Shown piece after piece: positions 5,394-52,355 of a DNA stretch of 64,000 bases. A program made the translations under genes and the position numbers. The notes beneath the pieces were generated by a model. It saw only the letters and a list, made by a program, of their open reading frames with translations. It ran no database searches and was not told the origin of the DNA. The DNA comes from Herbidospora daliensis (GTDB taxonomy: Bacteria > Actinomycetota > Actinomycetes > Streptosporangiales > Streptosporangiaceae), in contig NZ_BBXF01000006.1 of the NCBI RefSeq assembly GCF_001570585.1, positions 124,001 to 188,000 of the forward strand, given 5' to 3'. Positions within the stretch are counted from its first letter, which is position 1; every line of letters begins with the position of its first letter.

Positions 5394-6952
5394 GCCCGAT
5401 GCACTTCCACCACGCCGACCTCTTCGAGGGGCTGGCCGACGCCATCGGCGACCGCACGGCCGTGGTCTGCGGCGACGACCGGGCCACCTACGCCGAACTC
5501 GACGCCGCCGCCAACCGGCTGGCCCACCACCTCGCCGGGCACGTCGCCCCCGGTCAGCACGTCGGCGTCCACCTCTACAACGGGCTCGAATACGTGATCG
5601 CGCTGCTGGCGATCCTGAAGATCCGCGCGGTGCCGGTGAACGTCAACTACCGCTACGTCGCGGCCGAACTGAGCTACCTGTACGACGACTCCGACATCGT
5701 CGCCCTGGTCTACTCGGCCGAGTTCGACGACCGGGTCGCCGCCGCCCGCACCGACCGGATGCGCCACCTCATCGCGGTGGGCGACTCGGCCATCGCCGAC
5801 GCGGTGCCGTGGAGCCGCGCGGTCGAGGGCTCCGCCGACCGCGACTTCGGCCCGCGCGACGGCCAGGACGTCTACATCATCTACACCGGCGGGACGACCG
5901 GCCTGCCCAAGGGCGTGTTGTGGACGCACGAGGACCTGTTCATGGCCTTCGGCGGCGGCAACCCCTACGGCGCGCCGCACACCACGCCCGAGGCGGTCGT
6001 CGAGCAGGCCCGCGCCGCCGGGCCGCTCACCATGATGGCCGCGGCCCCGCTGATGCACGGCGCCGCCCAGATGGGCACGTTCATCGCGTTCTGGATGGGC
6101 GCGACGATGGTCTACGTGCCGCGCTTCGAGGCCGACGCGGTGCTGCGCGCGATCGGCCGGGAGAAGGTGGTGTCGATCACCATCACCGGCGACGCCATGG
6201 CGGTTCCGCTGGCCGACGCGTTGGAGACGGGTTCCTACGATCTGTCGTCGTTGTTCGTGCTCAGCTCGACCGGCGCGATCCTGACCGGGGCCGTCCGCGA
6301 CCGCCTGCAGGCGCTGCTCCCGAACGTCATGATCATGGACAGCTTCGGCTCGACCGAGTCGGGCTACACCGCCTCGGCGGTCGCCGGGTCGTCGCCGGAG
6401 TCGGGCCTGAAATACCAGCCCAACCCGAACGCGACGATGGCCGTGCTCGACGGCGCGCTGCGCCCGGTCGCCCCCGGTGAGATGGGCGTGGTGGCCAAGA
6501 CCGGCCGCATCGCCCACGGCTACTACAAGGACCCGGCGAAGACCGAAGAGACCTTCGTGACCGACGCCGACGGCGTGAAGTGGCTGCTCACCGGCGACGT
6601 CGCCCGCGTGGAGGAGGACGGCACCATCCGCGTCTACGGCCGCGGCTCCCAGTGCATCAACACCGGCGGCGAGAAGGTCTTCCCCGAAGAGGTCGAAGCC
6701 GTGCTGAAAGGCCACCCGGGCGTCTTCGACGCGGTCGTCACCGGCCTGCCCGACGACCGCTGGGGCCACCGCGTGGCCGCCGTCGTCGAACCCCGCACCA
6801 AGAACCTCACGGAGTCGGACCTCGACGCCCACTGCCGCGAACGCCTATCGGGCTACAAGGTCCCTCGGCAGTACGCGTTCGTGGGGGAACTGGTGCGCTC
6901 CCCGTCGGGCAAGGCCGACTACAGGTGGGCCCGCGAACAGTTCGACCCGTGA
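5390..6952 (+). CDS. fadD19: Steroid/fatty acyl-CoA ligase, FadD19-like
   Basis: FadD19 ligates CoA to the C24/C26 acid of the sterol side chain and is required for C24-branched sterols in rhodococci. 520 residues; ATG at 5390 overlaps the ltp3 stop (ATGA). The N-terminal part (DLFEGLADAIGDRTAVVCGD, then VPVNVNYRYVAAELSYLYDD) is very close to what I know of mycobacterial FadD19. Motifs: YTGGTTGLPKGVLW about residue 165, DSFGSTESGY about 320, TGDVARVEEDGTI, GRGSQCINTGGEKVFPEEVE, and PSGKADYRWA with the C-terminal catalytic Lys. Last gene of the operon; 27 bp separate it from the convergent reductase. Confidence 0.85.
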   Translation: MSPMHFHHADLFEGLADAIGDRTAVVCGDDRATYAELDAAANRLAHHLAGHVAPGQHVGVHLYNGLEYVIALLAILKIRAVPVNVNYRYVAAELSYLYDDSDIVALVYSAEFDDRVAAARTDRMRHLIAVGDSAIADAVPWSRAVEGSADRDFGPRDGQDVYIIYTGGTTGLPKGVLWTHEDLFMAFGGGNPYGAPHTTPEAVVEQARAAGPLTMMAAAPLMHGAAQMGTFIAFWMGATMVYVPRFEADAVLRAIGREKVVSITITGDAMAVPLADALETGSYDLSSLFVLSSTGAILTGAVRDRLQALLPNVMIMDSFGSTESGYTASAVAGSSPESGLKYQPNPNATMAVLDGALRPVAPGEMGVVAKTGRIAHGYYKDPAKTEETFVTDADGVKWLLTGDVARVEEDGTIRVYGRGSQCINTGGEKVFPEEVEAVLKGHPGVFDAVVTGLPDDRWGHRVAAVVEPRTKNLTESDLDAHCRERLSGYKVPRQYAFVGELVRSPSGKADYRWAREQFDP

Positions 6953-6979
6953 CCGGGGCCGGGGGGTCGCTTGGGTGGG

Positions 6980-7564
6980 TCAGCGTTTGATGTCGTAGGT
7001 CAGGTGGGTGGCCAGGGGGGAGGTGCGGCAGTTCACCAGGTCTAGGTCGGCCTCGAAGGTGCCGTCGAACAACGGTGTGCCGCTGCCCAGGACCACGGGG
7101 GCGATGGTGATCCAGAGCCGGTCGACCACGCCCATCCGGAGATACTGCCGGATGACGTCGGCGCCGCCGCCGATGGCGATCGGGAGGTCGCCTGCCGTCT
7201 CGCGGGCGCGCTTCAGCGCCTCCTCCGCGCCGGTGACGTAGGTGAAGTCGGTCGGCAGGTCGTCGGTGATCCGGTTGGTCAGCACGAAGATCGGGCTGGC
7301 GAACGGGTTCTCGCCGCCCCACGCGCCGGCCGCGTCGAACATGCTCCGGCCGACGATGGTCGCGCCCGCCCCGTTCATCTCGGCGATGACCTCGGCGTCG
7401 ACCGGGTGGAGGTCGCTGCCGGACGACGGGTTCTCGTAGGTCCACGGCCCGCCGAACACCCAGTAGTGGAGGCGTTCGCCGCCGTCGCCGAGACCTCGGC
7501 CGGGGCCCCAGTTCGGACCGGCGACGAAACCGTCGAGGGAGATGGTGATGCCCGCGTGAATCAT
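6980..7564 (-). CDS. RibD C-terminal-domain / dihydrofolate reductase-like protein
   Basis: Single-domain member of the DHFR/RibD-C superfamily, 194 residues, close to the usual 180-200. N-terminal MIHAGITISLDGFVAGP is the standard start of this family, with the Asp of SLDGF conserved. A nucleotide-binding region reads IAIGGGADVIRQYLRMGVVD about residue 130-150, followed by APVVLGSGTPLF. Such proteins are NADPH-binding reductases of unknown substrate; true folate reductase activity is not implied. Start ATG at 7564; 35 bp from the LysE gene upstream on the same strand. Confidence 0.88.
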   Translation of the reverse strand: MIHAGITISLDGFVAGPNWGPGRGLGDGGERLHYWVFGGPWTYENPSSGSDLHPVDAEVIAEMNGAGATIVGRSMFDAAGAWGGENPFASPIFVLTNRITDDLPTDFTYVTGAEEALKRARETAGDLPIAIGGGADVIRQYLRMGVVDRLWITIAPVVLGSGTPLFDGTFEADLDLVNCRTSPLATHLTYDIKR

Positions 7565-7599
7565 GCCGTCATCGTGCCCGAGGGCACCGACAGAATCGG

Positions 7600-8232
7600 C
7601 TACTTCGACGGCTCCCCGGCGAACGCGGCCACCCCGCCGAGCGCGATGTAGACGACGCCGCTGCCGACGTCGAGCCGGCGACGGGCGGCGGCCGAGCGCT
7701 TGAGGCGTCCGGACAACGCGGAGGCGGCCAGGGCGTAGGTGCCGTCGCTGGCCATGCCGAGGACGACCCAGATCATGCCGAGCAGCACGATCTGCGGGGC
7801 CAGCGGGCCCGCGTGCGGGTCGGCGAACTGCGGCAGGAAGGCCAGGAAGAAGATGGCGGTCTTCGGGTTGAGCACGTTCACCACGAAGCCCTCGCCGAAC
7901 AGGCGCGCCTTCGGGGTCGCGACGACCACGGCCTCCTCGGCCGAGCTCCGGTCCATGAGCTTGCGGACGCCCAGGTAGACGAGGTAGGCGGCGCCGGCGT
8001 ACTTGACGATGGTGAACGCCGTCGCCGAGGCGGCCAGGATCGCGCTGATGCCCAGCGCGGCGGCGGCGATGTGGACGAGCGACCCGGCGTGCACGCCGAG
8101 CACCGAGACCATCCCGGCGGCACGCCCCTGGGCGACGCTGCGGGTGACGATGTAGACCACGGCGGGGCCGGGCACGAGCAGCAGAGCCAGGGTGGCGACG
8201 GAAAAGACGGCGAGCGTCGGCAGATCGGGCAT
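7600..8232 (-). CDS. LysE/RhtB-family amino acid exporter
   Basis: Integral membrane efflux protein of 210 residues. It has six hydrophobic segments: about residues 7-29, 40-62, 66-88, 117-135, 150-170 and 185-206. The signature LLVPGPAVVYIVTRSVAQGR follows the first helix and NVLNPKTAIFFLAFLPQF the fourth; both are characteristic of LysE/RhtB transporters (PGP and NPK motifs). Substrate is probably a neutral or basic amino acid, unassigned. It sits 28 bp downstream of the LysR gene on the same strand, so it may be co-transcribed with and controlled by that regulator. Confidence 0.92.
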   Translation of the reverse strand: MPDLPTLAVFSVATLALLLVPGPAVVYIVTRSVAQGRAAGMVSVLGVHAGSLVHIAAAALGISAILAASATAFTIVKYAGAAYLVYLGVRKLMDRSSAEEAVVVATPKARLFGEGFVVNVLNPKTAIFFLAFLPQFADPHAGPLAPQIVLLGMIWVVLGMASDGTYALAASALSGRLKRSAAARRRLDVGSGVVYIALGGVAAFAGEPSK

Positions 8233-39301: not shown

Positions 39302-40578
39302 GCGACGTCGGGACGATCTGCTCCGATCTCATCAGGATCGACACCACCAACGAGGGCGACAACCGGGGCCGAGGTGAACGCGGCGCGGCCGAGTACGTCG
39401 CCACGCTGCTCTCCGACGCCGGAGTCGAGGCGACGATCCTGGAGTCGTCGCGCGGCCGGTCGAACGTGGTAGCCCGGGTGCGCGGCTCCTCCGACGCCGA
39501 CCCGTTCCTCATCCACGGCCACCTCGACGTGGTGCCCGCCGTCGCGGACGACTGGGCGGTCCACCCGTTCTCCGGCGAGATCGTCGACGGGGTCGTGTGG
39601 GGACGCGGCGCGGTCGACATGAAGGGCACCTGCGCGATGACCCTCGCGCTCGTGCGCGACTGGGCCGCGCGCGGGCTGCGGCCCTCGCGCGACGTCGTGC
39701 TCGCCTTCACCGCCGACGAGGAGGCCACCGGCGAGTACGGCTCGTACTACCTGGCGGGCCGGCACGCGGGCCTCTTCGACGGGGTGCGGGAGGCGATCAG
39801 CGAGGACGGCGGCTACTGCGTCGTCCACGAGGGGAAACGCGTCTACCCCGTGGCGGTCGGCGAGCAGGGCATGGCGTGGATGCGGCTGACCGCCGACGGC
39901 GTCGCCCAGCACGGCTCGCTCCGCGCGGTCGACAACCCGGTCGCCGAGATCTGCCACGCGATGTCGCGGCTGGCGGCGTACGAGTGGCCGATCCAGCTCA
40001 CCTCCGGCGTCAGGAGCATGCTCGACGGCATCTCCCGGGCCCTCGACGTCGAACTCGACATGTCGGACCTCGACGGCGAGGCCCGGCGGCTCGGCCAGGT
40101 GGGGGAGCTGTTCGCCCACGTGCTGCGCAACTCCGCGAACGTGACCATGCTGGACGCCGGATACAAGGTCAACGTGATCCCCGGGTCGGCGTCCGCGCAG
40201 GTCGACGGCCGGTTCCTGCCCGGCTCCCGGGAAGAGTTCCTGGCCACCGTCGACTCCCTGCTCGGCCCGAAGGTGCGCCGCGAGTTCGTCTGCTTCGAGG
40301 ACGCCCCGCAGGCCGACCCCGGCGGCCCCACCTTCGACGCGTTGTGCGCCGCGCTGGTCGCCGAGGACCCGGAGGCGCTGCCCATCCCGTACGTGATGAG
40401 CGGCGGCACCGACGCCAAGGCGTTCCACGAACTCGGCGTCGTGACCTACGGCTTCGCGCCGCTGGCGCTGCCCGAGGGGTTCGACTACAACGCGATGTTC
40501 CACGGCATCGATGAACGGGTGCCGGTCAGCGCGCTGGAGTTCGGCGTCCGGGTGCTCGACCGCTTCTTCCGCCCGTGA
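39298..40578 (+). CDS. M20/ArgE-DapE-family amidohydrolase
   Basis: 426 residues. Di-zinc ligands H75 and D77 (IHGHLDVVP), bridging D107 (WGRGAVDMKG), catalytic E141/E142 (FTADEEATG), and a C-terminal His in AMFHGIDERV. Lid domain about 190-320 (ADGVAQHGSLRAVDNP; MLDAGYKVNVIPGSASAQVDGRF). ArgE/DapE relatives remove acyl groups from amino acids or split dipeptides. Located in the peptide transport operon and coupled to it (ATGA), it should act on the imported compound; substrate unknown. Confidence 0.92.
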   Translation: MSDVGTICSDLIRIDTTNEGDNRGRGERGAAEYVATLLSDAGVEATILESSRGRSNVVARVRGSSDADPFLIHGHLDVVPAVADDWAVHPFSGEIVDGVVWGRGAVDMKGTCAMTLALVRDWAARGLRPSRDVVLAFTADEEATGEYGSYYLAGRHAGLFDGVREAISEDGGYCVVHEGKRVYPVAVGEQGMAWMRLTADGVAQHGSLRAVDNPVAEICHAMSRLAAYEWPIQLTSGVRSMLDGISRALDVELDMSDLDGEARRLGQVGELFAHVLRNSANVTMLDAGYKVNVIPGSASAQVDGRFLPGSREEFLATVDSLLGPKVRREFVCFEDAPQADPGGPTFDALCAALVAEDPEALPIPYVMSGGTDAKAFHELGVVTYGFAPLALPEGFDYNAMFHGIDERVPVSALEFGVRVLDRFFRP

Positions 40579-41594
40579 TCGGCGTCTGGTCGCCCTCGAC
40601 CCTGCTGCACGACCCGTCGGCGGAGATCTGGATCGGCCTGCGGACCCCCGGCACCGAGGTGGCCGAACGGGTGCGGCGCATCCGCGCGGCCGTGCCCGCG
40701 ACGTGGGCCGAGGCCGCCGAGGCGCCGTGGGACGTGCTGACCTCGGTGCACTCCGAGGGACTGCTGCGCCATCTGCGGGACGTGTACGCGGAGTGGGTCG
40801 CGGCGGGTTACCCGCAGGACCGGGTGGTGCCCTACGTGTTCCCCACGGCGGCGATGCTCGGCGGCCTGCCCGGCCGGTCGCCCGCGGCGGTGCACGGGCG
40901 GGCGGGGCTGTACGCGTACGACACGATGACCCTGGTCGGGCCCGGGACGTGGGAGGCGGCGCTGACGGCGGCCGGCGCGGCCTGGACCGCCGCCCGCCTG
41001 GTGTCCCGCGACCTGACGTATGCGCTGTGCCGCCCGCCGGGCCACCACGCGACGCGGGACGGCTACGGCGGTTCGTGCTACCTGAACAACGCGGCGGTGG
41101 CCGCCACGACGTTGCGCGCGGAAGGCTACGCGAAGGTCGCCGTCGTCGACGTGGACGCCCACCACGGCAACGGAACGCAAGCCATCTTCTGGGACCGGGA
41201 CGACGTGTTCTACGGCAGCGTGCACGTGGACCCCGGGGCGGGCTGGTTCCCCCACTACGTGGGCTTCGCCGACGAGACCGGCGGCGGAACCACCCTGAAC
41301 GTGCCGATCGCCCCCGAGTCCGGGGACGGGGTGTGGCTTTCCGCGGTGGCGCGGTTGTGCGAGGCGGTGGCGGCCTTCGGCGCCGAGGCGCTGGTGGTGT
41401 CACTCGGCGTGGACGCCGCCGCCGACGACCCGGAGAGCCCGTTGCGGGTCACCCGGGACGGCTACCTCTCGACCGGGCGGCTGCTCGGCGGGCTGGGATT
41501 GCCGACGGTGGCGGTGCAGGAGGGCGGCTACCACCTGGAGACGCTCGGGCCGCTGGTGGCCGCGACGCTGCGGGGGATTCAGCCGCCTTCGTAG
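40575..41594 (+). CDS. Histone deacetylase-family (acetylpolyamine amidohydrolase-like) protein
   Basis: 339 residues from GTG 40575 in the overlap with the M20 gene. Arginase/deacetylase-fold landmarks: charge-relay pair in CRPPGHHATRDGYGGSCYLN, Zn ligands in VVDVDAHHGNGTQAIF, and the later SLGVDAAADDPES and VQEGGYHLETLG motifs. Bacterial members deacetylate acetylpolyamines, acetoin-related or N-acetylated compounds. As last gene of a peptide uptake operon it suggests that the imported substrate carries acetyl-lysine or an acetylated polyamine (inference). Its end overlaps the ATPase remnant by 16 nt. Confidence 0.9.
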   Translation: MIGVWSPSTLLHDPSAEIWIGLRTPGTEVAERVRRIRAAVPATWAEAAEAPWDVLTSVHSEGLLRHLRDVYAEWVAAGYPQDRVVPYVFPTAAMLGGLPGRSPAAVHGRAGLYAYDTMTLVGPGTWEAALTAAGAAWTAARLVSRDLTYALCRPPGHHATRDGYGGSCYLNNAAVAATTLRAEGYAKVAVVDVDAHHGNGTQAIFWDRDDVFYGSVHVDPGAGWFPHYVGFADETGGGTTLNVPIAPESGDGVWLSAVARLCEAVAAFGAEALVVSLGVDAAADDPESPLRVTRDGYLSTGRLLGGLGLPTVAVQEGGYHLETLGPLVAATLRGIQPPS

Positions 41595-43326: not shown

Positions 43327-44016
43327 ATGGCTTATCCCCAGCAGCGCCGGGTGCTGGTCGTCGAGGACGACGACACCATCGCGAAAGCGGTCGCGACCCG
43401 ATTGACGGCCGAAGGGTTCGATGTCCGGGTCGCCGGTGACGGCGAAGGGGCGCTGGTCGCGTACGCGCGCTTCGAACCCGATCTGGTGGTGCTCGACCGG
43501 CTTCTGCCCGGTTTGGACGGGCTGGAGGTGTGCCGCCGCATCCAGGCCGCCCGGCCGGTGCCCGTGCTCATGCTGACCGCGCTCGGCGAGGAGACCGACG
43601 TGCTGGTCGGGCTCGGCGTGGGGGCCGACGACTACATCACCAAGCCGTTCAGCATGCGCGAACTGGTCGCGCGTATCCACGCCCTGTTGCGGCGGGTCGA
43701 CCGGGCGGTGCAGCTGGCGTCCGAGGAGACGGTGCTGCGGGTCGGCGAGATCGAGATCAACCTCGCCGAGCGGCGGGTGTTCGTGCGCGGGGCCGAGGCC
43801 CAGCTGACCCGGACCGAGTTCGACCTGCTCAGGCGGCTCGCCGAACGTCCCGGACAGGTCTACGAGCGCGAACGGCTGCTCGCCGACATCTGGGGGTTCT
43901 CCGAGGCGGCCGCGACGCGCACCGTGGACAGTCACGTGCGGGCGCTGCGTCGCAAGCTCGGGTCAGAGGTGGTGCGGACCGTCCACGGGGTCGGGTACGC
44001 CCTGGTGCGCCCATGA
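43327..44016 (+). CDS. OmpR-family response regulator
   Basis: 229 residues. Receiver domain about 7-120 with acidic residues E13-D15, phospho-acceptor D57 in LVVLDRLLPG and K in YITKPFSMREL. The C-terminal winged helix about 130-229 ends TVDSHVRALRRKLG...VHGVGYALVRP, the standard OmpR signature. Start ATG 43327. Overlaps the kinase gene by ATGA, so they form a cognate pair. Confidence 0.97.
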   Translation: MAYPQQRRVLVVEDDDTIAKAVATRLTAEGFDVRVAGDGEGALVAYARFEPDLVVLDRLLPGLDGLEVCRRIQAARPVPVLMLTALGEETDVLVGLGVGADDYITKPFSMRELVARIHALLRRVDRAVQLASEETVLRVGEIEINLAERRVFVRGAEAQLTRTEFDLLRRLAERPGQVYERERLLADIWGFSEAAATRTVDSHVRALRRKLGSEVVRTVHGVGYALVRP

Positions 44017-47000
44017 GGCCGCTCGACTTCCTCGGCCGCATGAAGGTCAAACTCGGGATCGTCATGGTCGGGGCCGTGGTGACCGCGTTCGTGGTGAACG
44101 AGGTGGGGATCAACGGGGGCGTTCCCCGCGACCTCCGGATCGCCTTCGCGGTGTTCCTGGCGCTGCTCATGATGCAGGTGCTGGCCCGGGGCATGACCAA
44201 GCCCCTGCGGGAGATGGCCGCCGCCGCGCAGACCATCGCCAAGGGTTCGTACGGCCTCCGCGTCACCGCCACCAGCCGCGACGAGGTCGGCGAGCTGGCC
44301 AGAGCCTTCAACGCGATGGCCGCCGACCTGGCCGAGGTCGACAGACAGCGCCGCGAACTGGTCGCCAACGTCAGCCACGAACTGCGCACCCCGATCACCG
44401 GGGTGCAGGCGGTCCTGGAGAACGTGGTCGACGGCGTCTCCCCACCCGAGCCGGAGATCCTCGGCACGGCTCTGGCGCAGACCCAGCGCCTGGGCCGCCT
44501 GGTCGCCCAGCTCCTCGACCTGTCGAGACTCGACTCGGGGGCCCGCCCGATCGAGGCCGAGGAGTTCGACCTGGCCGACCTCGGCGGACAGGCCGTCCGC
44601 GAGGCGTCACTGCGCCGCGACGACGTGACGGTCGTCGCCCAGATCGAACCCGGCCGCCACCTGACGACCGCCGACCCGTCGCTGCTCGCCCAGGTGCTGG
44701 CCAACCTGCTGGACAACGCCGTCAGGCACAGCCCGCCCGGCGGAACGGTCACCCTGACCTCCCGCGCGTCCACCGACGGAACCCTGGAAATCGAGGTCGC
44801 CGACGAAGGCCCCGGCATCCCGCCCGCCGACCGCCAGCGCGTCTTCGAACGCTTCTCCCGCCTGGACGCCGCCCGCGCCGCCGACGCCGGAGGAGCCGGC
44901 CTCGGTCTGGCCATCGCCAAGGAGATCGCCGAACTCCACGGGGGCACCCTCGCGGTCGCCGACGGGACGGGCTGCCACATGGTCGTCACCCTCCCTAAGG
45001 CGGTCAGGGAACCGGCCCCCGCCGGCCGAACCCTGGCCGCGGGCCGGACCCCCACGGGGGCGGTCCACGCCCGCCTGCCGGCGACCCGCCGCTCACGAAC
45101 CGATACGGAGGCCGGTTCCGTGAAAAATCCCGACTCGCCAGTCGCCGCCCAACCGGCGCGAACGAACGGCTCACTCACCACAGACGTGTCACCTACGGCC
45201 GCACGACCCGCTTTCACCGAGGCGGCTGTCGAGGCGGCGCTCGACCTGTCGTCCGCACCGGCAGGCGAGCAGGCCTCGCCAGAGCGGGGGGGCGTGCCCC
45301 GGCTTGAGTCACCCACGGCTCCGGCCTCTCCCGGGGGACTGTTGTGGAGGGCATCGGCACCCGCACCGAACTCCACGGCAGCGGGGGAATCAGCGCTGGT
45401 GGAAGCACACGCTGGGCCCATGCCGACGTCGTCGGCCAACGGTTCCCAGGCCGCGCCAGAGCAAGCCGAGCCGCAGATCACTCAAGCACCCTCAACGGCA
45501 ACCGATGCGAGCCAAGGCAACCCGTTCGAGCCAGCCACTACGGCCATCACCTCGCACCCCACACCGGCTCAGGCTGACGCCGAGTCGCCTGCTGCACAGC
45601 CAGCGGCATTCCCGGCCGAAGCCGCACTGCCCATCTCACCGACTGCTCCCGCGGACGCGGCGGCTTCGACCGACGCCAGGCCGCTCACCCCCGCCGTCGC
45701 CGCGCATTCTGCGCCTGTCTCAGCTGACCCGAGGTCGCTTCCCGGTTCGACTGCGGATGAAGCGGCTTCAGCTAATTCCGGGTCGCGCTTCGCTCCGGCC
45801 GATCCTGTGCATGCGGCATCGGCTTCGGCTGACTCCGGGTCGCCCACGCATTCCGCGGTAAATTCGGAGGCGCCGGCTGCCCCTGTGCATGCGGCACCGA
45901 TTTCGGCCGACTTCGGGTCGCCCGTCTCGCCGGCCGTTGCCGCACATTCAGCGGCCGTCCCGCCGCCCGTCTCACCAATTGCGCATGCGGTGGCTTCAAC
46001 CGATTCCGGGTCGCCCGTCTCGGCCGACCCGAGGTCGTTCCCCGCCTTGGCTGTCGCCGCGGATGCGGCGGTGCCGTCAGCCGATTCCGGGTCGGCCGTC
46101 ATCCCGGCTGTGCCTGCGCGTGCGACGCCACTCTCGGCCGATTCCGGCTTGCTCGCCGCGTCGGCCGCTCCTGCGCAAGCTGCGGCTTCGGCTGACCCTG
46201 GGGCGCTCGTTTCCCCGGCTGTTCCCGTGGTCTCCTCGGCCACCACCGCGCAGGCCCCATCCGGCGAGCCCGGGTCGTCTTCGGCCGACGGTCGAACCAC
46301 GCCGGCCAGTTCTCTCCGGACCGCCGTCACCGCGCCGCACCCCGTCGTCGTCCCGCCCGACGACCGACCGCCCGCCCCACGCGGCGACACCACCCCAGGC
46401 GGTCCCCCGCCCGGCCAGTCGCGTCAGCGCATGTTCGAGGAGCCGCCCCCCGCCAGGTCCTTCGGCGGTGCCGTCGTCGGCGGGATCATCGGGGCGCTCG
46501 CCGGGTTGCTCGGGGGCACGGTCGCGGCCGTGTTCTTCGGCACCGGGCCGAACACCGAGGTCCAGGCCGCGGGCGCGTTCCTGCTCTTCGTCTGTGTCGG
46601 CATCGCCGCCGGCGCGTCGCTCGGCGGCCGGGTCAGGTCGTCGGAGCAGGCTGGGGGGCAGTTCGACGCGTACACGCCGCCGCCGCTGTTCCCCCGACCC
46701 GCCCTCCCCGACACGCCGAGCTGGGTGCTGCCGGCGGCCATGGGGGTGGGGCTCGTCGCGGCCGTCTGTTTCCCCTACGCGCCGACCGGCATCGGCGTGG
46801 TCCTGACCGCCGTGGCGCTCACGCTGGCGGTGGTCCCCGCGATCCGGCATCGGGTCAACGCCTGGAGCATCGCCTACTCCGTCGCCGCCTACGGGCTCGT
46901 GTCGGTCGCGCTGTTCCGGGACGCCGACTGGCTGGTCGGGCTCTCGCTGCTGGCCGCCTTCGCGGTCGCCTCGCTGGCCGTGTCAGGTGGGCGGGGCTGG

Positions 47001-48116
47001 GCCGGGGTGGTCAGGGGGTTGTTGTCGGTCGGGCTGGCGGTGTTCCCGGTGCCGTGGTTCCTCGGCGGGCCGGTGCGGCGGGTGCTCAAGCGGCGCAGCC
47101 TGCTGCCCGTCCTGGTGTCGCTGGGGGTCACCGCGATCCTGCTGGCGGTCTTCGGGGTGCTGTTCGTCTCGGCCGACGCGGTGTTCTCCTCGTTCGCCCG
47201 GGAACTGTTCTCGGCGCCCGCGTGGGCGGGGTCGCTGCCGGTGCGGATCTTCCTGTTCGTCGTCTTCGGGGTGCTGGCGGCCGCCGCGATCCTGGTCGCG
47301 CTGCGGCCGGTCGTCGAGCCCCGGGTCGACTACGCGCCGCTCAGCCTGGCCCGGACCCTGTGGATCATTCCGCTGGTCGGCGTCAACCTGCTGTTCGCCG
47401 CCTTCGTCGGGGTGCAGATCTCGGTGTTGTTCGGCGGCAGCCGCCGGGTGCTGGAGACCGCCGGGCTGACGTTCGCCGAATACGCCCGGTCGGGCTTCTT
47501 CGAGCTGATCACCGTCAGCGTGTTCGTGCTGTTCATCGTCGCCTTCTGCAGCGTGATGATCAAGGGCGACCGGTGGATCAGGGCGACCCTGCTGGGGCTG
47601 CTCTGCGCGCTGACCCTCGTCATCCTGGCCTCGGCGCTGCACCGGCTCGGGCTCTACACCGCCGCCTACGGCTTCACCCGGTTGCGGGCCTCGGTGGGGG
47701 CGACGATCTGGTGGGTCGCCGCGGTGTTCGTGCTGGTGCTGCTGGGTGGGCTGATCAGGCCGCAGGTCTGGTTGCCGAAGGCGCTGGTGCTGCTCACGGC
47801 CGTGTCGCTGCTGGTCTTCGCGGTCTGGAACCCGGACGCGCAGGTGGCCGAGACCCAGGTGTCGGTACGCGGCGTCGACCGCCTCGACGCCCACTACCTG
47901 GGCCGGTTGAGCGCCGACGCCATCCCGGGGCTCGACCGGCTGCCCGAGCCGATCAGGAGTTGTGTGCTGCGCGACGTGATCGACGTCCAGGACCTGCGGT
48001 TCCCCGACCCCTGGAACGGCTGGAACCTGTCGCGCCGCCAGGCCGCCGAGATCCTCGCGGCGCACCCGGTGGACCCGTCGGTGACGTGCGAGGAGAAGTA
48101 CCGGTCCGCATACTGA
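44013..48116 (+). CDS. Sensor histidine kinase fused through a long repetitive linker to a multi-TM DUF4153/DUF4173-like domain
   Basis: 1367 residues from ATG 44013. Two TM helices about 12-30 and 41-58 with almost no outside loop; HAMP about 59-111; HisKA with H122 in VANVSHELRTP; ATPase with N box LANLLDNAVRHSPPGG (229-244), DEGPGIP and GGAGLGLAIAKEI, ending about 332. Then about 480 residues of Ala/Pro/Ser-rich linker with repeated SADSGS units. From about 815, some 14 TM helices lead to a C-terminal domain (VRGVDRLDAHYLGRLSADAIPGLDRL, WNGWNLSRRQA) typical of DUF4153/DUF4173 proteins. These halves are normally separate genes; here one frame is continuous. The membrane domain may be the sensor. 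Confidence 0.87.
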   Translation: MRPLDFLGRMKVKLGIVMVGAVVTAFVVNEVGINGGVPRDLRIAFAVFLALLMMQVLARGMTKPLREMAAAAQTIAKGSYGLRVTATSRDEVGELARAFNAMAADLAEVDRQRRELVANVSHELRTPITGVQAVLENVVDGVSPPEPEILGTALAQTQRLGRLVAQLLDLSRLDSGARPIEAEEFDLADLGGQAVREASLRRDDVTVVAQIEPGRHLTTADPSLLAQVLANLLDNAVRHSPPGGTVTLTSRASTDGTLEIEVADEGPGIPPADRQRVFERFSRLDAARAADAGGAGLGLAIAKEIAELHGGTLAVADGTGCHMVVTLPKAVREPAPAGRTLAAGRTPTGAVHARLPATRRSRTDTEAGSVKNPDSPVAAQPARTNGSLTTDVSPTAARPAFTEAAVEAALDLSSAPAGEQASPERGGVPRLESPTAPASPGGLLWRASAPAPNSTAAGESALVEAHAGPMPTSSANGSQAAPEQAEPQITQAPSTATDASQGNPFEPATTAITSHPTPAQADAESPAAQPAAFPAEAALPISPTAPADAAASTDARPLTPAVAAHSAPVSADPRSLPGSTADEAASANSGSRFAPADPVHAASASADSGSPTHSAVNSEAPAAPVHAAPISADFGSPVSPAVAAHSAAVPPPVSPIAHAVASTDSGSPVSADPRSFPALAVAADAAVPSADSGSAVIPAVPARATPLSADSGLLAASAAPAQAAASADPGALVSPAVPVVSSATTAQAPSGEPGSSSADGRTTPASSLRTAVTAPHPVVVPPDDRPPAPRGDTTPGGPPPGQSRQRMFEEPPPARSFGGAVVGGIIGALAGLLGGTVAAVFFGTGPNTEVQAAGAFLLFVCVGIAAGASLGGRVRSSEQAGGQFDAYTPPPLFPRPALPDTPSWVLPAAMGVGLVAAVCFPYAPTGIGVVLTAVALTLAVVPAIRHRVNAWSIAYSVAAYGLVSVALFRDADWLVGLSLLAAFAVASLAVSGGRGWAGVVRGLLSVGLAVFPVPWFLGGPVRRVLKRRSLLPVLVSLGVTAILLAVFGVLFVSADAVFSSFARELFSAPAWAGSLPVRIFLFVVFGVLAAAAILVALRPVVEPRVDYAPLSLARTLWIIPLVGVNLLFAAFVGVQISVLFGGSRRVLETAGLTFAEYARSGFFELITVSVFVLFIVAFCSVMIKGDRWIRATLLGLLCALTLVILASALHRLGLYTAAYGFTRLRASVGATIWWVAAVFVLVLLGGLIRPQVWLPKALVLLTAVSLLVFAVWNPDAQVAETQVSVRGVDRLDAHYLGRLSADAIPGLDRLPEPIRSCVLRDVIDVQDLRFPDPWNGWNLSRRQAAEILAAHPVDPSVTCEEKYRSAY
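45650..46210 (+). repeat. Degenerate repeat units inside kinase linker
   Basis: The linker-coding DNA repeats GATTCCGGGTCG or near variants at about 45776, 45832, 45910, 46000, 46080 and 46140, spaced 55-90 bp. Each encodes (A)DSGS followed by a Pro/Ala run and an AxAAxA segment. Third-position GC is visibly lower than in the flanking kinase and membrane regions, suggesting an independently expanded low-complexity segment. Confidence 0.7.
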
Positions 48117-48120
48117 TCAC

Positions 48121-49614
48121 GTGACCTTCGACGTGGTGATCGCGAACGGCCGGGTCGTCGACGGGACCGGCGCCCCGCCGTTCCGCGCCGACGTCGGGAT
48201 CTCCGGCGGGAGGATCACGGCGGTCGGGCGGCTGCCGCACCACGACGCCGTCGACGCCGTCGACGCCACCGGCCGGCTCGTCCTCCCGGGGATGATCGAC
48301 TGTCACTCCCACGGTGACGCGCTGGTCCACGACGCGGGCTTCCAGCTCGCCAACCTGCGCCAGGGCGTCACCACGGTCGTGCTGGGCCAGGACGGGCTCT
48401 CGTTCGCGCCGACCACCACCAGGGCCGCCTTCGACTACGCCACCCGCTACTTCGCCGCCATCAACGGCGACTTCCCGGGCGACGGCCCGCTGTCGGTGGC
48501 GGAGATCAGGGCGAGCCACGACCGGGCCGCGCTGAACAGCGTCTTCCTGCTCCCGCACGGGACGATCCGCTACGACGTGCTCGGGTCCGCTCAGACCACC
48601 GCGTCTCCGGACGAAATCCACCGGATGCGCTCGATTGTGGAGAAGGGGCTCGACGAGGGCGCGGTCGGTCTGTCGACCGGTCTCGAGTACGTGCCCGGCC
48701 GCTACGCCGACGTCGGCGAACTCGCCGCCCTGTGCGCGCCGCTCCAGGGTCTCCCGTACGTCACCCACATGCGCGGCTACGGCCAGTCGGCGCCCGTGGG
48801 GATGAAGGAGGCGCTCGCCGTCACCCGGCGGGCCGGCGCCCCGTTGCACGTCTCCCACTTCCACGGCCCGGCCGACGTGCTGCTGCCGCTGCTCGACGGC
48901 GACACGACCTTCGACACCTACCCCTACCTGCGCGGCAGCACGATCCTGGCGATGATCGTGTTGCCCGCGAACGTGCCGGCGGCCGACCCGGCGGCGGCCC
49001 TGCCGATGATCGAGCGGCTCGACCTCGACTACGCCTGGGAGCGCCTCACCATCGCCCACGCCCCGGGCCTCGAATGGTCCGAAGGGCTCACCATCCCGCG
49101 GGCGGCCGAGCGCCAGGGGGAGAGCCCGGCGCTGTTCGCCCGCCGTCTCCTCGTCGAGACCGGCCTCCAGGCGGGCTGCGTCAGCGCCCGGCCCGACGAG
49201 GGCCCCGAGGGCGAGGAGTCGGTCCGCCGGATCCTGCGCCACCCGGCCCACACCGGCGGCTCCGACGGCCTGCACGTCGGCGGCCACCCGCACCCCCGCG
49301 CCTACGGCGCGTTCGCCCGTTTCCTCGGCCATCACGTGCGGGAGAAGGCCGACCTGAGCTGGTCGGAGGCCGCCTCACACCTCGCGGCCCACCCGGCCCG
49401 CCGGTTCCGGCTGTTCGACCGGGGGCTGGTCCGCCCCGGCCAGGCCGCCGACCTGATCCTCGTCGACCCGGCGACGGTCGCCGACCGGGCCACCTACGCC
49501 CACCCGCGCGAGCTCGCCCAGGGCGTCGACGACGTGTGGATCAACGGGGTACGCGTCCTCGAAGACGGACGAATGACCACAGCCCGCCCCGGCCGGGCCC
49601 TGCGACCGGCGTAG
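48121..49614 (+). CDS. N-acyl-D-amino-acid deacylase (D-aminoacylase)
   Basis: Amidohydrolase of 497 residues (family 480-530), GTG 48121, 4 nt after the kinase gene. N-terminal beta-sandwich plus TIM barrel. Metal motif DCHSHGD about residue 60-66 (HxH), a Cys-type ligand region not clear, then VTHMRGYG about 216-223, HVSHFHGPAD about 244-253 (His ligands), and SDGLHVGGHPHPRAYGAF about 381-398 with the catalytic Asp. Releases D-amino acids from N-acyl forms. Next genes (PLP enzyme, RidA) supply the following steps. Confidence 0.9.
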   Translation: MTFDVVIANGRVVDGTGAPPFRADVGISGGRITAVGRLPHHDAVDAVDATGRLVLPGMIDCHSHGDALVHDAGFQLANLRQGVTTVVLGQDGLSFAPTTTRAAFDYATRYFAAINGDFPGDGPLSVAEIRASHDRAALNSVFLLPHGTIRYDVLGSAQTTASPDEIHRMRSIVEKGLDEGAVGLSTGLEYVPGRYADVGELAALCAPLQGLPYVTHMRGYGQSAPVGMKEALAVTRRAGAPLHVSHFHGPADVLLPLLDGDTTFDTYPYLRGSTILAMIVLPANVPAADPAAALPMIERLDLDYAWERLTIAHAPGLEWSEGLTIPRAAERQGESPALFARRLLVETGLQAGCVSARPDEGPEGEESVRRILRHPAHTGGSDGLHVGGHPHPRAYGAFARFLGHHVREKADLSWSEAASHLAAHPARRFRLFDRGLVRPGQAADLILVDPATVADRATYAHPRELAQGVDDVWINGVRVLEDGRMTTARPGRALRPA

Positions 49615-50751: not shown

Positions 50752-51132
50752 GTGAAGGAAGAGATCCGCACGACCGACGGAGCCGCCCCGGTCGGCGCCT
50801 ACTCGCAGGGGCTCGTGGTCGGCGACTTCGTCTACACCTCCGGCATGGGGCCGCTCGACCCGGAGACCGGCGAGATCGTCGGCGCCGACGTGGCCGAGCA
50901 GACCCACCGGACCATGAAGAACCTGGGCGCGGTGCTCGCCGTCCACGGCCTGACCTTCGACGACGTGATCAAGTCGACGGTGCACCTGCAGAACCTGAAG
51001 GAGGACTTCGCCGCCTACAACGAGGTGTACAAGTCCTACTTCACGCAGCCCTATCCGGTCAGGACCACCGTAGGATCGCAGCTCATGAACATCCTGGTGG
51101 AAATCGACTTCGTGGCCTACAAGGGGCGTTAG
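50752..51132 (+). CDS. RidA-family enamine/imine deaminase
   Basis: 126 residues, GTG 50752 after AGGAG. Signature GAYSQGLVVGDFVYTSG about residue 14-30, and the substrate-binding Arg in YPVRTTVGSQL about residue 102 are seen; C-terminal EIDFVAYK is typical. RidA hydrolyses reactive 2-aminoacrylate-type enamines made by PLP dehydratases to keto acids and ammonia, so it suits its place right after a PLP dehydratase/aldolase. Stop overlaps the next GTG start. Confidence 0.94.
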   Translation: MKEEIRTTDGAAPVGAYSQGLVVGDFVYTSGMGPLDPETGEIVGADVAEQTHRTMKNLGAVLAVHGLTFDDVIKSTVHLQNLKEDFAAYNEVYKSYFTQPYPVRTTVGSQLMNILVEIDFVAYKGR

Positions 51133-52355
51133 TGGATTCTTCGGTGTACGTCTTCGTCGAGGACCTGCGCGACGAGGGCGTCGACGCGGTGCTCGACCGG
51201 ATCACGGACCTCGGCGTGGCCGGGGTGACCGTGGCCGCCGCCGTCCACCAGATCACGGACGTCACCCCCCACGGCTCCAGCCGGATCACCCTCCGGCACG
51301 ACGGGGTGCACTTCCCGCCGCCGCCCGACCTGTTCGGACGGCTCTCGCCGCCACTCCAGCCCGGCGCCGACGACAAGATCCTCGACGACCTGCGGGCCGC
51401 CTGCCGGGCGCGCGGCCTGTCCTTCCACGGGCAGGCGGTATTCCTGCGCAACGCGACCCTGGGGGCGGCCCACCCCGAGGTGACGGTCCGCAACTGTTTC
51501 GGCGACCGCGCCGCCCCCGCCGACCTGTGCCCGGCCAACCCCGACGTGCGCGCCTACGTGGTGGGCCTGGCCAGGGCGGTGGCCCGCCAGGGCGTCGACC
51601 GGGTCGTGGCCGACGCGCTGCACTTCGCCGCGTTCGAGGCGGGCCGCTCCTACATCCCCCTCGGCCCCATGGACGCCTTCCTCCTGGGCCTGTGCTTCTG
51701 CCACCACTGCCTGCTGAGGGCGACCCAGCTCGGGGTGAACGCCGAGGTGGCCCGCGAGGAGTGCGCCCGGATCGTCGGCGGCGTGCTCGACGGCGACCCG
51801 CCCGCCCAGGGCCAGGTGACCCGGGCGGCGCTGACCGCCTACGCCGGCCCCGAGGTGGTCGCCTACGCACGGGCCCGCTCCGAGACCGTGACCTCGCTGG
51901 TCGCCGAGGTCTCGGCGGCGGTCACCGAGGAGGGCTCCCAGCTCACCTTCACCGACGCCACCGGCGCGCTGAAGGGGGCCGCCGACGGGCTGCCCACGGC
52001 GGGCCTGGCCGCCCACGACGCCTGGCAGATCGGCGTCGACCTGGTGGCGCTCGGCGACCTGGTGCCCTCGTTCGCGGTGCTCGCCTACGCCCGCGACGCG
52101 ACCCGGATCGCCGACGACCTGGCCGCCTACTCGCGCTCGGTCGGCAAGGACCGCGAACTGCGCGCGGTGCTGCGGCCGGGCATGCCCGACATCGAGGGCT
52201 GGGGCGAACGCCGCCGCGACGTCGACTCGACCGAACGCCTGGCCGCCAAGGTCAGGGCCGCCAAGGCGGCCGGGGCGGCCGGCGTCGACTTCTTCGCCTA
52301 CGGCCTGGTCTCACGGAAGGTGCTGAGCCGGATCGACGGAGCCCTCTCAGGCTGA
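51132..52355 (+). CDS. Uncharacterised protein, probable TIM barrel, in D-amino-acid operon
   Basis: 407 residues from the GTG overlapping the RidA stop by one base. I do not recognise a named family. It opens VYVFVEDLRDEGVDAVLDRI and has regularly spaced beta-alpha units (GVAGVTVAAAVHQ; GVDRVVADALHF; GVDLVALGDLVPSFAVLAYA; GAAGVDFFAYGLVS), like glycoside-hydrolase or epimerase barrels. A conserved-looking motif LCFCHHCLLRATQLG (about 195-209) and NCFGDRAAPADLCPANP are Cys/His-rich and may bind metal. Being fourth in the operon suggests a role on the acyl or carbohydrate part of the D-amino compound (for example a muropeptide-like or lactyl conjugate). This is speculation. Confidence 0.75.
   Translation: MDSSVYVFVEDLRDEGVDAVLDRITDLGVAGVTVAAAVHQITDVTPHGSSRITLRHDGVHFPPPPDLFGRLSPPLQPGADDKILDDLRAACRARGLSFHGQAVFLRNATLGAAHPEVTVRNCFGDRAAPADLCPANPDVRAYVVGLARAVARQGVDRVVADALHFAAFEAGRSYIPLGPMDAFLLGLCFCHHCLLRATQLGVNAEVAREECARIVGGVLDGDPPAQGQVTRAALTAYAGPEVVAYARARSETVTSLVAEVSAAVTEEGSQLTFTDATGALKGAADGLPTAGLAAHDAWQIGVDLVALGDLVPSFAVLAYARDATRIADDLAAYSRSVGKDRELRAVLRPGMPDIEGWGERRRDVDSTERLAAKVRAAKAAGAAGVDFFAYGLVSRKVLSRIDGALSG

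Follow-up and report, generated by a model that had tools for sequence, protein, structure and literature searches.

The 64,000-nucleotide stretch of Herbidospora daliensis DNA analysed here (the window) carries one gene that joins a sensor histidine kinase, through a long low-complexity segment, to a large polytopic membrane domain. This organization raises the questions of whether the fusion is genuine, how it relates to loci where the two parts are separate genes, and what the membrane domain does for a kinase that has almost no outer loop. Loci of our samples are designated by L numbers and genomes by G numbers.

Organization of the fused gene and of its neighbours

The features of the locus are the following:

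43327..44016, + strand: OmpR-type response regulator, receiver and winged helix (Pfam Response_reg, Trans_reg_C)
44013..48116, + strand: fused gene kinase-linker-DUF4153, 1367 amino acids (same frame in L001-L005)
44013..44195, + strand: transmembrane helices at residues 10-28 and 43-61, joined by an outer loop of 14 residues, predicted by hydropathy
44178..44330, + strand: HAMP domain (PF00672)
44346..44540, + strand: HisKA with VSHELRTP H-box (PF00512, sequence)
44673..44999, + strand: HATPase_c (PF02518, sequence)
45012..46484, + strand: Pro/Ala/Ser/Thr/Gly-rich linker, residues 334-824, fast-changing and frame-preserving
46485..46625, + strand: Gly-rich helix pair, residues 825-871, inside the linker stretch (hydropathy)
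46725..47828, + strand: DUF4153 part, polytopic, with hydrophobic segments between residues 905 and 1272 and the Pfam match at 959-1310
47829..48113, + strand: C-terminal tail with a cysteine pair, predicted outside the cell (cysteine counts, topology)
48121..49614, + strand: amidohydrolase (PF07969; D-aminoacylase-like by eye)

The fused gene is one open reading frame with zero internal stops, as claimed in an earlier note on this DNA. That note had also described a complete kinase with a near-absent external loop and a DUF4153-like carboxyl-terminal domain, and both descriptions hold. The domains of a HisKA-type sensor histidine kinase are found in order: HAMP (residues 56-106, E 5e-15), HisKA with its H-box (residues 112-176, E 4e-16) and HATPase_c (residues 221-329, E 4e-29), the last with what we take, by eye, to be the N, G1, F and G2 boxes. 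Short-loop (intramembrane-sensing) kinases have two helices, a very short outer loop and no sensor domain. The kinase of the window has this build, with two helices, a 14-residue loop (both by hydropathy) and no Pfam match N-terminal of HAMP; reliance on a membrane accessory protein, another mark of such kinases, would be suggested here by gene order and fusion. With only these two helices and a tiny outer loop, it offers no dedicated domain to an external ligand. The carboxyl-terminal part belongs to DUF4153 (PF13687, residues 959-1310, E 7.6e-76) with a score of 256 bits against a curated cut-off of 27, and is the one DUF4153 match of the source genome.

The stop codon of the upstream regulator gene overlaps the kinase start as ATGA (44013-44016). 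The two proteins fall short of the MtrAB equivalog cut-offs of NCBIfam, the regulator reaching 219 of 300 bits for MtrA and the kinase 175 of 450 bits for MtrB. Downstream, the amidohydrolase gene starts 4 bases past the fused-gene stop (48114-48121), a spacing suggesting that the two may be co-transcribed, and it is also found beside several fused relatives. The segment 48121-52355 further encodes an alanine-racemase-N plus serine-dehydratase protein and a 407-amino acid protein (51132-52355) without a Pfam match. The latter is 94-97% identical among those Herbidospora loci that extend over it; in other relatives the matched part shows 65-76% identity. One or more of these genes recur beside many Streptosporangiaceae fusions, and no match to them was found in the ~8-kb stretches from outside this family. 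Sensing of D-amino acids was considered on the basis of these genes, and no conclusion is drawn from them. A histone-deacetylase-family protein is encoded near the locus (40575-41594).

Distribution and origin of the fusion

The fusion is in frame in all five Herbidospora relatives with a complete locus (L001-L005), with linkers of different lengths, so that the frameshift or assembly error in the linker against which the earlier note had cautioned was not seen. In a sixth Herbidospora (L006) and in Acrocarpospora (L007) the locus is cut by contig ends. Of the 86 gaps counted in five pairs, which share sequences and stem from a single nucleotide alignment, 69 are divisible by three. Synonymous changes exceed non-synonymous ones in the kinase and DUF4153 parts of all four codon-compared pairs; the linker varies freely and stays open. 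An internal start yielding a separate DUF4153 protein was considered for a single codon, the methionine before the Gly-rich pair, and is unlikely from there since this residue is unconserved and missing by eye in L001, L004 and L005.

DUF4153 is present in 41 of 100 genomes sampled from the same GTDB family. The search for the same architecture in other genomes, proposed in the earlier note, found kinase and DUF4153 in one frame in 29 of these 41 genomes, from 21 genus codes. The remaining ones have DUF4153 as a separate downstream gene (four genomes: G037, G050, G090, G091), a full-length DUF4153 in a stretch that gave no kinase match (four: G012, G023, G086, G088), a locus split across contigs (three: G003, G026, G068) or only a C-terminal DUF4153 remnant (G096). 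This remnant (L077, 3590-4240) sits inside its contig and not at a contig end; profile positions 272-399 of DUF4153 are left between the usual neighbours, without regulator or kinase match, and the cause is either a deletion or an assembly gap. The G012 locus (L057), which falls inside the fused clade, gave no match to a regulator or a kinase and keeps linker and DUF4153 (5640-7790) next to the usual downstream gene. From this arrangement it looks like a locus that lost its kinase half.

A profile of the kinase N-terminus gave one match per genome in 41 of the 100 family genomes. Both parts were found in 36 genomes, the kinase only in five, DUF4153 only in five and neither in 54 (Fisher p 2e-16); up to 47 first-look kinase candidates were scored per genome and absences may be misses. 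Among the kinase-only genomes, the kinase frame runs off the contig end in G027 and G071, that of G071 including the DUF4153 start, and G066, G067 and G085 have a kinase without a DUF4153 match. In a sample of 398 Actinomycetota genomes DUF4153 scored over the cut-off in 57, and the kinase N-terminus was found in 32 at E up to 1e-36, a threshold set at a gap in the match list. Here 24 genomes have both parts, eight the kinase only, 33 DUF4153 only and 333 neither (Fisher p 2e-16); up to four DUF4153 and 12 kinase first-look candidates were scored per genome, and again absences may be misses. The two Fisher values overstate the case because species are not independent samples.

Among the 24 phylum-sample genomes that have the two parts, 22 carry them fused or next to each other (exceptions G189 and G354), the fused cases being the window, L094 and L111. 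The DUF4153 loci of 12 of the 57 genomes were left out, none of them among the 32 kinase genomes. A downstream gene was called in six of the eight kinase-only loci and none encodes more than two scored helices. By eye, some of these genes resemble an amidase or a 2-oxoglutarate dehydrogenase, and the L133 and L144 kinases, which lack DUF4153, adjoin an apparent 2-oxoglutarate decarboxylase/dehydrogenase gene. An obligate partnership between kinase and DUF4153 is rejected, since in some genomes each part occurs without a detected copy of the other. Sampling was restricted to Actinomycetota except for a control search, which found DUF4153 in Escherichia coli and Caulobacter too.

In all, 54 distinct loci have both parts, 35 fused and 19 made of separate genes (L060 and L063, which are from the same contigs as L002 and L003, were left out of this count and of the trees), and relatives thus do not always have two genes, an outcome that the earlier note had held open. 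Separate loci have the gene order response regulator, short-loop kinase, DUF4153, and 13 of the 19 show a 4-nt overlap between the kinase stop and the start of DUF4153. The placement of the presumed sensor after the kinase, which had been taken as a reversal of the normal order, is therefore not odd, as it is the gene order of the separate loci. Likewise, what had been proposed as a possible new class of sensor joins two genes that are commonly neighbours, and so is not new as a class throughout. Among 82 classified DUF4153 rows (L007, L061 and L070 left out; L116 counted as unlinked with only 416 bases upstream) 19 are separate genes beside the kinase and 28 are unlinked to it, some of the latter in genomes that have the kinase elsewhere. 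Two helices were scored in 52 of 56 kinase rows, and in these 52 the outer loop has 2-15 residues; two of the 56 rows are repeats. The frame is cut off by a contig end in L006, L007, L061, L070, L074, L120, L123, L125 and L127. L126 has its own stop before the contig end; its kinase carries a tandem SARPQ-type repeat insert that separates the N and G1 boxes of the ATPase domain.

The fused state does not form a single clade. On the 85-row kinase tree it requires three changes, forced by well-supported branches, with the fused kinases in a large Streptosporangiaceae clade, in L041, and in L094 with L111, two long branches whose pairing is unsure. Four changes are counted on the DUF4153 tree. 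A single clade holding together the 35 fused kinases and four with a frame off the contig was rejected (p-AU 2e-6). These are quick trees, and state changes cannot separate gain from loss. About three independent fusions would be the simplest reading of the tree; fewer, older fusions with later splits are possible.

Linker and membrane topology

The linker was earlier described as 480 residues long and repetitive. Its length is close to that (~490 residues; 491 from 334 to 824) and its repetitiveness is only weak in the window. The segment from the kinase end to the DUF4153 start is 63% P/A/S/T/G. Tandem Repeats Finder identified eight short arrays of ~2-3 copies each in 43500-48500, with a best score of 53, and a 19-residue period present in the linker of the close relative L002 is faint here. 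The extra hydrophobic pair inside the linker stretch was scored by hydropathy in many fused relatives, not in all. Across fused proteins the stretch between kinase and DUF4153 varies from 115 to 687 residues. A signal passing through the linker, as earlier suggested, is therefore unlikely: a tether so variable would hardly carry a defined conformational signal, which makes lateral contact within the membrane the likelier route. As for its origin, the linker may have grown out of the N-terminal tail of DUF4153 itself, because low-complexity tails, Pro-rich or acidic, are also seen by eye at the N-terminus of the unfused DUF4153 proteins L044, L045 and L067.

Hydropathy averaged over the alignment predicts 12 hydrophobic segments for the DUF4153 part, which with the Gly-rich pair agree with the 14 helices counted earlier. 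One of the 12 (residues 999-1017) is weak and may not cross the membrane. As it is followed by a strongly positive loop, we infer 11 crossings and a tail outside the cell. Of 85 extracted rows, 73 have two cysteines in their last 75 residues, 11 have none and a single row has one. Since these cysteines come nearly always as two or none, the pair is probably disulfide-bonded. Twelve polar positions are at least 85% conserved in 85 DUF4153 rows (D1055, 1135, 1153, 1154, 1157, R1159, 1207, R1211, 1215, R1225, 1292 and 1295), in an alignment that excludes L006, L060, L063, L074 and L077. In the predicted topology they share one side of the membrane, lying on or near the outer face if segment 999-1017 does not cross; if it does, this conserved face and the tail would be inside. 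A sequence search for a relative of solved structure found none at E up to 10, and an AlphaFold model built from eight alignment rows (mean pLDDT 43.8, pTM 0.23) is too poor to judge lateral contact.

Possible role of DUF4153 and relation to known systems

We give about an even chance to the reading that DUF4153 is a membrane accessory protein joined covalently to the kinase, probably as its signal input, with the linker as a tether. A broader proposal, which we consider slightly less probable, is that DUF4153 constitutes a family, so far unrecognised, of membrane modules that supply the signal input of short-loop kinases in Actinomycetota; regulator, kinase and DUF4153 would form a three-component system, fused more than once with the sensor after the kinase, in which the signal passes through lateral contact between helices instead of along the polypeptide. 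In the first reading, DUF4153 would lie beside the kinase in the membrane, with the conserved polar residues and the probably disulfide-bonded tail facing outward. It would detect an envelope-related condition and alter the kinase via helix-helix contact within the membrane, upon which HAMP would switch HisKA/HATPase and the response regulator encoded directly upstream would become phosphorylated. The linker would provide only nearness and a fixed 1:1 ratio, with no part in transmission. A sensor role for DUF4153 has to be read together with the genomes that have DUF4153 and no detected kinase, and with others that show the reverse.

The persistence of a full-length DUF4153 without a detected kinase in four family genomes, one of them inside the fused clade, implies that it has some function of its own, and the L057 locus makes a role beyond sensing likely in at least some lineages. 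DUF4153 could thus be an enzyme or a transporter acting on the envelope, with a kinase that either follows its activity or simply stays next to it; the two would be coupled functionally, and DUF4153 would not be a dedicated sensor. Its Asp, Arg, Gln and Tyr residues of high conservation, which resemble a binding or active site, would fit this alternative, to which we assign roughly one chance in three. Signalling is favoured, however, by the presence of fused kinases in more than one lineage and by a recurring gene order that includes a sensor-poor kinase; the alternative is also compatible with signal input by DUF4153 and does not exclude it. It is distinctly less probable that the two helices of the kinase are themselves its sensor, DUF4153 being only co-expressed and the fusions arising from incidental loss of the overlapping stop and start. 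The kinases without a detected DUF4153 in eight of the 32 phylum-sample genomes argue for this possibility, as does SCO5282 of Streptomyces coelicolor, whose four-residue outer loop goes with activation by a HAMP change in the available text of PMC6629963. An incidental fusion would nevertheless be expected to break, whereas the frame is preserved across a fast-changing linker, and the fused state extends over many genera of the family and more than one lineage. Finally, the possibility that the fused frame stems from an assembly error or a frameshift, or that the gene is decaying, suggested by the low complexity of the linker and by contigs that end inside it (L120, L125, L127) or just past it (L123), is dismissed as extremely improbable given the five separate in-frame Herbidospora records, the predominance of gaps in multiples of three and the excess of synonymous changes.

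If signal input by DUF4153 is correct, the fused protein is a kinase with a polytopic input domain placed after its ATPase domain. The recurrence of the fusion names DUF4153 as a candidate partner for kinases with unexplained input, makes both the input of these kinases and the function of DUF4153 testable, and suggests that DUF4153 helps the kinase to sense the cell surface. Many genomes of Actinomycetota contain short-loop kinases of this family. That of Streptomyces influences growth form according to the available part of PMC6629963, an activating HAMP mutation dispersing growth; sensing by its own two helices is suggested there in passing. SCO5283/SCO5282 resemble the window locus in that an OmpR-type regulator is followed by a two-helix HAMP kinase with a near-zero outer loop (PMC6629963, same part), but they are unfused and none of seven presumed Streptomyces loci has a DUF4153 match beside the kinase. 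The seven kinases (code f3/g70) fall inside the 85-row kinase tree, from which SCO5282 itself is absent, and each has a regulator upstream. The Streptomyces label is presumed from a 2-oxoglutarate-dehydrogenase-like neighbour in L144 and from the published primer for the SCO5282 cytosolic part, which in degenerate and slightly extended form matches two of the seven (L146, L147). This primer match and the published account of the SCO5282 loop are what tie the seven kinases to SCO5282. DUF4153 is found elsewhere in some of these genomes (G362, G366, G434).

Other short-loop systems include GarR/GarS (PMC11043171, available part). LiaFSR of Bacillus and relatives, as described in the excerpts available, also combines a short-loop kinase with a membrane accessory protein, LiaF, which inhibits LiaRS; LiaF is separate and inhibitory, whereas the system described here has an OmpR-type regulator and a covalent fusion. 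No Pfam match to a LiaF or PspC domain was found in the fused gene at E up to 1, which sets it apart from LiaFSR and from PspC kinases. DUF4153 and DUF4173 were once placed in the Cache clan and then judged unrelated to it, as stated in the accessible text of PMC4822843; beyond the PF13687 match reported here, DUF4153 is elsewhere also a gene of its own, as in the separate and unlinked rows counted above. No description of a kinase-DUF4153 fusion was found in the accessible portions of the literature on DUF4153 and DUF4173, most subscription journals lying outside the search, and the available part of PMC11237479 names neither family. That part does describe the nearest published analogue found, actinobacterial kinases fused to PspC and LiaF-LiaI-TM, in which the accessory domain is proposed as the sensor. 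There, too, a membrane accessory domain is fused to a kinase, but at its N-terminus, in contrast to the polytopic DUF4153 that follows the ATPase domain in the protein of the window.
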